Shown here piece after piece: positions 9,388 to 17,438 of a stretch of DNA of 33,381 nt. Source of the stretch: Planctomycetota bacterium (GTDB taxonomy: Bacteria; Planctomycetota; Planctomycetia; Isosphaerales; Isosphaeraceae). The notes beneath the pieces are model-generated. The model did no database searches, was not told the origin of the DNA, and saw only the letters and a list, made by a program, of their open reading frames with translations. Numbering within the stretch: position 1 is the first letter of the stretch; the number at the start of each line of letters is the position of its first letter. The translations under genes were made by a program, and so were the position numbers. Where the stretch lies: positions 1-33,381 of the forward strand of contig JAKBAP010000005.1 of assembly GCA_021808995.1 (NCBI GenBank), given 5' to 3'.

Positions 9388-9449
9388 CGACGTCCTCGAT
9401 CCCAAGGAATCGCGCCCAGACCGCCACGGGTCGCGAAAGACCGACAAAG

Positions 9450-9522
9450 CACCCCCACGGGGACTCGAACCCCGGTCCCTTGGCTGAGAACCAAGTATCC
9501 TAGGCCGCTAGACGATGGGGGC
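9450..9522 (-). tRNA. tRNA-Glu (anticodon CUC)
   Basis: A 73-base cloverleaf on the minus strand. The acceptor stem is GCCCCCA with TGGGGGT, whose terminal pair is G1-U72; the discriminator is G. The anticodon stem CTTGG/CCAAG encloses loop TTCTCAG, giving anticodon CTC for glutamate. The T arm is CGGGG-TTCGAGT-CCCCG. The CCA end is not encoded. A strong promoter lies just upstream at 9538-9565. Confidence 0.95.
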
Positions 9523-15167: not shown

Positions 15168-15524
15168 ATGAGCACCCACGACGAGCTCGTCCGCAAACAC
15201 TGCGTCCCCTGCGAGGGAGGAATCCCGCCACTCTCGCGATCGGAGGCCGAGGACTTGATGACGAGCGTCCCCGGCTGGTCCCTCAAGGGGACAGGGGACC
15301 GAATCAGCCGATCCTGGACCATGAAAAACTTCATGGCCGGGATCGATTTCTTCAATCGCGTCGCCGCCCTGGCCGAGGAGGAAGGGCACCACCCCGACCT
15401 CAGCCTGGAAAGCTATCGCAAGGTCGAGATCACCATCTGGACCCATGCGGTCGGCGGTCTCACCGAGAACGATTTCATCCTCGCCGCCAAGATCAACGAC
15501 CTGCCCGTCAAGCTCAAGAAGTAG
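15168..15524 (+). CDS. 4a-hydroxytetrahydrobiopterin (pterin-4a-carbinolamine) dehydratase
   Basis: A 118-residue PCD/DCoH/PhhB-family protein. It dehydrates pterin-4a-carbinolamine formed by aromatic amino acid hydroxylases, although in bacteria lacking such hydroxylases its role is unclear. The start CVPCEGGIPPLSRSEAEDLM is a common bacterial form, followed by PGWSLKG, the active-site EEEGHHPDLSLES (paired His) and the ending ITIWTHAVGGLTENDFILAAKI. Length is normal. It follows panB by 30 bases. No phenylalanine hydroxylase is visible in the window. Confidence 0.95.
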   Translation: MSTHDELVRKHCVPCEGGIPPLSRSEAEDLMTSVPGWSLKGTGDRISRSWTMKNFMAGIDFFNRVAALAEEEGHHPDLSLESYRKVEITIWTHAVGGLTENDFILAAKINDLPVKLKK

Positions 15525-15536
15525 ACGCCACCCACA

Positions 15537-16032
15537 CGGGTGCGCCAACGGATTCTGGCATTCGGTCCGCGCGGAAGGTTTTTGGCCTGTCGGCGACTCG
15601 GAGGCTTGGAGAATCGAGGGCCGACCCTTAACGGACCCGGCCCGCTCGCGTGACCACGGACGTGAGTCCGTGGTTTCAGACAGGACAAATGTCCTCCAAC
15701 CTTGGGCGTAAGCCCGATTCCTGCCCAGGATCCGCACCCACTCGCCCGCGGATCAAGTCACCGCTCGCGTGGATCACGCTCCTGGCCAAGCGCCGACTCA
15801 CGGCCCGATCGGGCTCACGCCCGAGCTTATTGGACCTACGTCCCGTTCGGACCACGGACTCACGTCCGCGGTCACGTTATGCGCCGACGTGACGCGCTTG
15901 GGTCGTCCCGTTCCAACGTTCGCTGGCCAGCGCACTCGTTGAGCCGTGTTCGGCGAAGTCGTGGTCTCGGCTTCGCCGCGGCAGGTTCGATCCCGACTTT
16001 CAAGAAACCGCCAGAACCCGTTGGCGCACCCG
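15537..16032. repeat. Nested inverted duplication of short hairpins (possible palindromic MITE/REP-like element)
   Basis: A 23-base end (15537-15559, CGGGTGCGCCAACGGATTCT...) recurs inverted at 16010-16032 with one mismatch. Inside, three hairpins on the left (15653-15674, 15682-15695, 15704-15715) are mirrored on the right in reverse order and opposite strand (15809-15824, 15832-15843, 15851-15872). Each has a 4-base loop, and spacers between neighbouring hairpins are 7-8 bases on both sides. Stems change by compensating pairs (GGAC/GTCC against GGGC/GCCC) and four of six loops read GTGA or GTAA in the outward-to-centre strand, i.e. GNRA tetraloops closed by C-G. No protein is encoded. Similar hairpins may be dispersed in related genomes; that needs a search. 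Confidence 0.75.
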
Positions 16033-16154: not shown

Positions 16155-17438
16155 CTAGCCCACGAGCTCCTTGATGGGCGCTCCCCCGTCGACGACCTTC
16201 ATCGGCCGGCCACGCGGCGTGGTGTATTGAGTGGCGATATTGATTCCCATGCTCTGGGTAAGGGTGGCGATCAGGTCCATGACGCCGACGGGGTGGTCGA
16301 CGATATCGACGCCGTCCTTGTCCGTGGCCCCGACGACCTGGCCCCCCTTGATCGAGCCGCCACCCACCACGACCGACCAGCTCCGTGGCCAGTGGTCGCG
16401 GCCGGCGTTTTGATTGATCCGCGGGGTGCGCCCGAACTCGCCCATCCAGACGATCGAGGTGGTTTCGAGCAGGCCACGCGAGGCCAGGTCGGCGGTGAGC
16501 GCGCCCATGCCCTTGTCAAGTTCGGGCAAGAGCCTGCGTGAAAGTGCGTCGAAGTTATTGGTGTGGGTGTCCCAGCCGTCGAGCGCGACCTCGACGTAGG
16601 TCACGCCCTGCTCCACCAGCCGCCGCGCCATCAGGCAGCCCGATCCGAATGATCCCTTGCCATAGGCGTCGCGGAGGGCCGCGGGCTCCTGGTCGAGATT
16701 AAACGCCGCTTGATATTTGGAATTCATCATCCGCAAAGTCTTGGAATAGATCGCCTTATGGTCCGAGGCGGCCTGGACCTTGCGCTGGTCGACGAACTGG
16801 TTTTCAACCTGGCCGAGCATCCGCAGCCGCCGATCGAGCCGCCATCCCTCGACATCCTTGGGCGGGCGCAGGTTGGCGATCGGGGTATTGGGGTTTTGCA
16901 CCATGAACGGCGAATACGACATCCCCAGGAACCCCGCGCCAATGCCTGGAGTATTGATCGAGATGCAATGCGGCAGGTCGAAATTCTCGAGCCGTTCGCC
17001 CAGTTCCATCGCGCAGACCGATCCCCAGCCGGGATGGGTGACCGTGGGATTGGGCGAATAGCCCGTGTGCATGAGATAGCGGCCGCGATCGTGATTCCCT
17101 TCCTTCGAATCCAGCGAGCGGATGATGGAGAGGTGCTTCATCTGCTTGGCGACCAGCGGCATATGCTCGCTGATCTTGACCCCGGGGGCCGAGGTCTCGA
17201 TTGGGCGGAAGGGGCCGCCGTTTTTCTCGCTGTCGGGCTTCAAGTCCCAGATGTCGAGGTGCGAGGGCCCCCCTCCCATCCAGAGCACGATGCAGCTTTT
17301 GTTCGTCTTCTTGAGGGCCGCGGCGTTTGCCTCGAGAGACGAGAAAAACTGGACGGCTGGAATACCAAGCGCCGTCGAGGCGAGGTGCCCGAGCCAGTGC
17401 CGCCGCGTCATTCCACTGGGAAGCTCTCGATCCGACAT
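16155..17438 (-). CDS. DUF1501 protein (sulfatase/alkaline-phosphatase-like fold), Tat-exported
   Basis: A 427-residue DUF1501 protein. It begins with a twin-arginine signal (MTRRHWLGHLASTALGIPAV, Arg pair at 12-13), then SCIVLWMGGGPSHLDIWDLKP, the first metal/substrate loop. NHDRGRYLMHTGYSPNPT and HPGWGSV follow, then VTYVEVALDGWDTHTNN, WMGEFGRTPRIN and GRDHWPRSWSVVVGGG, all conserved in the family and located where alkaline-phosphatase-superfamily enzymes bind metals. Function is not established; such proteins are usually paired, as here, with a DUF1549/DUF1553 protein. Start ATG at 17436-17438 has GAGGAG upstream. It follows the partner gene by 87 bases, same strand. Confidence 0.92.
   Translation of the reverse strand: MSDRELPSGMTRRHWLGHLASTALGIPAVQFFSSLEANAAALKKTNKSCIVLWMGGGPSHLDIWDLKPDSEKNGGPFRPIETSAPGVKISEHMPLVAKQMKHLSIIRSLDSKEGNHDRGRYLMHTGYSPNPTVTHPGWGSVCAMELGERLENFDLPHCISINTPGIGAGFLGMSYSPFMVQNPNTPIANLRPPKDVEGWRLDRRLRMLGQVENQFVDQRKVQAASDHKAIYSKTLRMMNSKYQAAFNLDQEPAALRDAYGKGSFGSGCLMARRLVEQGVTYVEVALDGWDTHTNNFDALSRRLLPELDKGMGALTADLASRGLLETTSIVWMGEFGRTPRINQNAGRDHWPRSWSVVVGGGSIKGGQVVGATDKDGVDIVDHPVGVMDLIATLTQSMGINIATQYTTPRGRPMKVVDGGAPIKELVG

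Follow-up and report, generated by a model that had tools for sequence, protein, structure and literature searches.

A palindromic intergenic locus in an Isosphaeraceae genome as a probable MITE carrying a REP-like pair of three-hairpin units

In the window (the whole 33,381-nt stretch of planctomycete DNA analysed here), the genes for a pterin-4a-carbinolamine dehydratase (Pterin_4a, + strand, ending at 15524) and a DUF1501 protein (- strand, ending at 16155) converge on an intergenic palindrome, which raises the question of what kind of element this palindrome is. An earlier note, made from the sequence alone, had described mirrored sets of GNRA-loop hairpins and had offered three guesses, i.e., a palindromic MITE, a REP-like family or a structured RNA made from both strands. 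The best reading is that the locus is repeated mobile DNA and not a structured RNA; with a probability of roughly three in four, it combines two non-autonomous mobile elements, namely a MITE around a REP/BIME-like pair that was formerly spread by a Y1 transposase of the Y---Q--HH type. Two of the three guesses are right at once, because the outer part is MITE-like and the inner part is REP-like. While these are ordinary mobile repeats, the triple-hairpin REP-like unit, the link to a Y---Q--HH TnpA and the repeated capture by MITEs are unusual. The sole tRNA gene in the window, tRNA-Glu(CTC), is found at 9449-9522 on the - strand.

The locus is bounded by a 23-nt terminal inverted repeat (TIR) with one mismatch (left, 15537-15559, + strand; right, 16010-16032, - strand), as the earlier note had stated, and the copy of the outer element spans 494 bp (15538-16031; TIR GGGTGCGCCAACGGATTCTGGC). 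A left arm (15560-15649; about 78-98%) and a right arm (15876-16009), both kept in other copies, enclose a head-to-head pair of three-hairpin units (15650-15875) that begins with GTGACC and closes with GGTCAC. Each inner unit has about 70 nt and consists of a foot, with the consensus GTGA, followed by hairpins H1, H2 and H3. Unit 1 (15648-15717, + strand; 84 bits with the covariance model R1) comprises the foot GTGA (15650-15653), H1 (15654-15673, loop GTGA), H2 (15682-15695, loop AAAT) and H3 (15704-15715, loop GTAA). Unit 2 (15809-15877, - strand; 87 bits with R1) comprises H3' (15809-15824), H2' (15832-15843), H1' (15852-15871) and the foot complement TCAC (15872-15875), and a spacer (15718-15808) separates the two units.

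The two mirrored sets of three hairpins were found again by alignment, with inverted arms at 15649-15674/15851-15876 (96%) and 15680-15718/15808-15846 (74%), and by single-strand DNA folding, which gave exactly three hairpins in each 70-nt half (z -3.7 and -4.7). RNA folding of the whole element (511 bp) gave z -9.8 / -12.3, and none of 100 shuffles was equally stable. The two finer claims, that the loops are GNRA and that the stems vary by compensating changes, were borne out in the window only in part: four of the six loops are GNRA and the H2 loops are AAAT and GTAG, while compensating changes are few (A-T to G-T between H1 and H1', and one T-G to C-G in H3).

A search of the window genome (G000, a fragmented MAG of 5.17 Mb in 586 contigs with a completeness of 90%) with the 511 bp yielded 5 near-full copies (75-100%) and about 30 shorter ones. 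The outer element is thus present at about 35 places, in sizes of 101-494 bp (mostly 240-495 bp), some copies stopping at contig ends. Outer copies are bounded by a TIR of 22-23 bp (GGGYGCGCCAACGGATTCTGGC), and 18 complete own copies show both ends. When the 8 bases outside both ends were compared, 8 of these 18 copies showed a target duplication with at least 7/8 identity, e.g., GGCTTGAA, CCGCCGGT, GCCGGCCC, GGCCGGAC and ATGGGCTT, compared to 0.7% of control pairings in which ends of different copies were paired; over the MITE sets tested, control rates were 0-1.3%. No duplication could be recognised at the window copy or at 7 other own copies. Two of the duplication-flanked copies (L004 and L005) carry the full inner pair, indicating that outer and inner part moved together. 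Each of the 21 own copies examined lies between genes, and none is covered by an ORF. The outer element is therefore a non-coding intergenic MITE that makes 8-bp target duplications, in agreement with the first of the three guesses. Shorter elements with the same outer TIR and other interiors were found in two further Isosphaeraceae genera (g8 and g18), with 8-bp duplications in 3 of 7. Gene orientation around the own copies is mixed (12 ++/--, 5 -+ and 2 +-), and they show no preference for convergent intergenic regions.

No autonomous IS with the outer TIR was found among the TIR sites of G000, itself a fragmented genome, and of three other genomes (G059, G040 and G041). One candidate in G059 (L073, contig C47; 1590-2371, 782 bp) has inverted outer TIRs, but was rejected since it has no transposase ORF; a six-frame ORF in this locus holds the string PHPNPLPEGEG, which has the look of a chance translation of a repeat. 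Contig C438 of the window genome ends (G000:C438:13408-13731; L006, L016) in a second version of the window's left flank and left arm, at 98%, which connects by way of H1 with another right arm and right flank. As the left half thus recurs with another right half, the window copy may have recombined; possible sources of the arrangement are recombination of two copies, variation among strains and a chimeric join in the MAG.

The inner part has a distribution of its own. In a search of relatives, the part of the 511-bp query that recurred outside the window genome was mainly 69 nt (120-189). The covariance model R1, built from an alignment (A1) of 18 units, was run over 45 family genomes and matched 34 times in the window genome, where some matches are collapsed single H1 hairpins, 6 times in a congener (G001), 67 times in the Isosphaeraceae MAG Centralia_MAG_412 (G006), 29 times in Aquisphaera insulae JC669 (G041), 113 times in another Aquisphaera genome (G040; 123 by direct search) and once, weakly, in G008. 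This amounts to about 250 inner repeats across six Isosphaeraceae genomes, and a class-wide R1 search of 398 genomes gave strong matches nowhere beyond these six. Most units form head-to-head pairs of about 143-226 bp that start with GTGACC and close with GGTCAC, mostly without the window's outer element. The ends of the pairs are sharp at these hexamers, and in G006 the flanks mostly differ; pairs in this genome typically combine a long unit with a short one that is missing H2 stem bases, i.e., they are heterodimers. The inner unit thus constitutes a separate interspersed repeat family within the Isosphaeraceae, and the guess of a REP-like family holds for the inner part, with R1 matches in six genomes, pairing and the covariation described below. 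At one G040 locus (L103; G040:C1:5504560-5504954), two inner pairs were seen side by side within 400 bp, a clustering as in BIMEs.

The search of the own genome and of relatives that the earlier note had proposed hence found many copies rather than a single one, which also decides the most trivial explanation, i.e., that the hairpins arose by assembly error or as palindromes that occur by chance in intergenic DNA rich in G+C. The fragmented state of the window genome, a MAG, and the several copies that reach contig ends would speak for it, but the same unit is present in other genomes, including a near-complete chromosome of 10.4 Mb, and neither the fold z-scores nor the covariation were matched by shuffles. 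This explanation is already refuted by the multiple copies and the cross-genome matches, and its probability is negligible.

Covariation was assessed on 142 units (129 distinct) in an alignment fitted to the model, which favours covariation, and the independent alignment A1 gave the same picture. Among the distinct units, 95.9% of the pair cells hold standard pairs. Double-change cells numbered 385, as compared to 145.5 in shuffles, and none of 500 shuffles reached the observed value; the covariation score was 0.402, as against 0.111 after shuffling and no more than 0.057 in slid controls. The compensating stem changes which are scarce inside the window are thus strong across the family, and the covariance check suggested at the outset turned out positive. 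The loops follow a different rule than the one first proposed. A C-G pair closes the H1 and H3 loops in 247 of 255 cases and the loops are GNNA in 109/127 (H1) and 112/128 (H3), but GNRA accounts for only 66/127 and 39/128, because GTCA is common, so that GNRA is ruled out as the kept loop feature and the kept form is c(GTNA)g, often with GTCA. The unit is therefore maintained through base pairing and c(GTNA)g loops, and a loop with its closing pair, c(GNNA)g, that is kept while the stem covaries represents a testable structural code. In DNA, the motif d(cGNNAg) is known to form stable tetraloops; the kept loop would therefore suit DNA hairpins better than RNA GNRA loops.

These data also bear on the third guess, according to which the locus is a structured RNA, be it an sRNA or a terminator-type element acting in both directions, and keeps its hairpins for a function in transcripts of either strand. 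Strong covariation and the intergenic position, with the window copy lying between convergent genes, would be expected of such an RNA, and REPs can act as RNA elements (PMC3733652). However, no Rfam match above noise was found, GTCA loops are as common as GNRA loops, copy number ranges from 0 to 123 between related genomes, gene orientation around the own copies is mixed and the unit is found inside two MITEs. A structured RNA is therefore improbable, and the copies are distributed in the manner of mobile DNA.

The second of these MITEs was identified in the Aquisphaera genome G040, where many inner pairs form the centre of a 322-bp element that has a different TIR (GGGATCGTCCCAAATG). Eight-bp duplications flank 10 of 13 copies of this element (rows of 256-274 bp starting at the inner match set aside), and all 44 TIR sites in G040 adjoin an inner pair; no autonomous IS was found at these 44 sites, all of which belong to pair-bearing copies. 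The same inner pair is thus shared by two MITEs with unrelated TIRs. Earlier work placed REP dimers within longer palindromes, namely GTAG-15 of Anabaena variabilis and CGTC-1 of H. neapolitanus (Di Nocera et al., PMC3733652), and MITE capture would offer a concrete explanation for these reports.

A hint as to which single-strand-DNA transposase spread the inner repeats comes from other family members. No Y1 transposase (PF01797) was found in the window genome, a fragmented MAG with 90% completeness, while 4 to 10 matches each were found in the congener G001 and in the five further family genomes searched; without a Y1 transposase there is no local driver in the window genome, and its 34 unit matches are orphans there. 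Of the Y1 matches in the seven genomes searched, the best one is in A. insulae and is bracketed exactly by two inverted units. The bracketed element (L204:1278-2103) starts with GTGACCACG, ends with GTGGTCAC and holds one gene, P0001, of about 187 aa, the stop codon of which is about 30 nt from the unit. P0001 is an IS200/IS605 TnpA (NF033573, 101.8 bits with a cut-off of 55, NCBIfam; Pfam Y1_Tnp, 97.5 bits) and not a RAYT (NF047646, 30.4 bits, below the cut-off of 80). It carries the motifs HVH and YIGKQDDHH (Y---Q--HH), and its C-terminus reads unlike those of other Y---Q--HH proteins in this set (L205/L216). P0001 is single copy, is absent from the other unit-bearing genomes, including the unit-rich G040 and G006, and, across 298 class genomes, has no relative that exceeds 37% identity over most of its length; its locus is the only one known with a TnpA between true units of the inner family. 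Another inner pair (L204:1084-1251) abuts this TnpA element, again a clustering as in BIMEs. Two observations on this locus were set aside: the A. insulae pairs as internal deletions of the TnpA element, for which alignment scores at the pair centre barely beat shuffles, and PDB matches of P0001 to designed 'SAKe' chains, where no stretch passed on its own.

With the A. insulae discovery locus left out, and with Y1 loci chosen solely on protein or family similarity, cGNNAg hairpins (stem of at least 7, within about 480 bp) were found at 6 of 14 Y---Q--HH TnpA loci and at none of 34 other Y1 loci (p = 2e-4), and at the Y---Q--HH loci 11 hairpins were nearby as opposed to 1 farther off (p = 3e-5). 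This association supports, indirectly, a link between the Y---Q--HH transposase type and the cGNNAg hairpin type.

The same data have to be weighed against an explanation without this transposase, namely that the inner pair is a mere conserved MITE core, spread by the MITEs alone, and that the A. insulae TnpA landed in a pair by chance. IS elements are known to insert into REPs, ISPpu9 being an instance (PMC8450116), and the TnpA-bearing locus is known just once; in addition, every outer-TIR site in G040 flanks a pair, and the H1 hairpin is present in nearly all outer copies of the window genome. However, sharp GTGACC...GGTCAC pairs were found that lack the outer TIRs seen in other places (67 units in G006, with several more in G001 and G040), the same pair is carried by two MITE families with unrelated TIRs, the single-copy P0001 gene nearly abuts a unit, and cGNNAg hairpins flank other Y---Q--HH TnpAs as well. 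A mere MITE core is thus unlikely, although clearly less so than a structured RNA, and a composite with a REP/BIME-like pair is preferred.

By comparison with known systems, the inner family shares most features with REP/BIME elements and their RAYT/TnpA-REP proteins (PMC3733652, PMC6006769, PMC2817692). It is a high-copy intergenic palindromic unit found mostly as inverted dimers, with a conserved 5' tetranucleotide, interspersed hairpins, heterodimers, compensatory stem changes, double-foot remnants, a flanked Y1 transposase gene and dimers nested in longer palindromes, and it probably works like a REP dimer. In contrast, REP units have one hairpin of 20-40 nt and are linked to RAYTs, whereas the inner unit has three hairpins, is linked to an IS200-type Y---Q--HH protein and is nested in MITEs with demonstrated 8-bp duplications. 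It was assigned to neither REP superfamily because their tags are missing: its foot is GTGA rather than the GT[AG]G of the GTAG superfamily, whose flanked gene is a RAYT, and the CGTC superfamily has a CGTC tag at one end, a single stem of 8-9 bp and no transposase. Among TnpA proteins, subclass 1.2 has the signature Y---Q--HH, generally lacks typical terminal IS200 structures and is found mostly in Cyanobacteria and Bacteroidetes (Quentin et al. 2018, PMC6006769). P0001 shares its signature, low copy number and IS200-like core, but the planctomycete Y---Q--HH members, unlike the subclass as described, are flanked by cGNNAg hairpins. Class 3 TnpA-Y1, with atypical secondary structures, is known from Planctomycetes and Acidobacteria (PMC6006769) and resembles the present system in phylum, in several hairpins per flank and in high-copy genomic relatives; its foot is CnGA and its motif Y----Q, whereas P0001 has three residues between Y and Q and the foot here is GTGA. 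The outer element is short, non-coding, TIR-bounded and multicopy like other bacterial MITEs with 8-bp duplications, from which it differs by a foreign-type hairpin pair as its centre and by the autonomous IS not found in the genomes searched. REPs with their transposases are known best from Proteobacteria; the present family represents a planctomycete case with a larger unit and another transposase class.

We infer a likely order of events. A Y---Q--HH HUH single-strand (Y1) transposase would recognise the unit hairpins as folded single-stranded DNA, with GTGA serving as its foot or guide, and would move or copy the inner pair as single-stranded DNA; the A. insulae locus could be a surviving 'REPtron'. 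MITEs with a putative DDE-type transposase would then have twice taken the pair into their centre and multiplied it passively. In the window genome, where the inner family may now be decaying, most pairs would have lost their inside through a deletion that runs from one palindromic H1 hairpin to the other, with GTGA-H1-TCAC as the remnant. Consistent with this last step, many short own copies have query positions 1-145 of the 511 bp joined directly to 321-502 or 405-504, the spacer and H2/H3 being missing. The join falls at H1, which is retained as a single extended palindrome (GTGACCACGGACGTGAGTCCGTGGTCAC), and in most copies of the window genome the pair is reduced to one double-foot hairpin GTGA-H1-TCAC. 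An inverted REP dimer that loses its centre by deletion can become a double-foot REP (PMC6006769), and the short own copies have exactly the form described there, so that a collapse suggested from other genomes is shown here in many copies of one family.

A broader proposal, for which the odds appear even, is that Planctomycetes harbour an undescribed class of multi-hairpin REPs in which Y---Q--HH Y1 transposases recognise arrays of c(GNNA)g hairpins, with the three-hairpin family of the Isosphaeraceae captured twice independently as a MITE core. Outside the Isosphaeraceae, planctomycete Y---Q--HH TnpA genes were seen flanked by hairpins like GTAG-CCAGGGGCGCAAGCCCCTGG with cGNNAg loops, at 1410 and 1985 in L244 (G182), at 1324, 1409, 2022 and 2096 in L249 (G039), and in L247, L248, L240 and L252, which could possibly represent a wider REP-like system.
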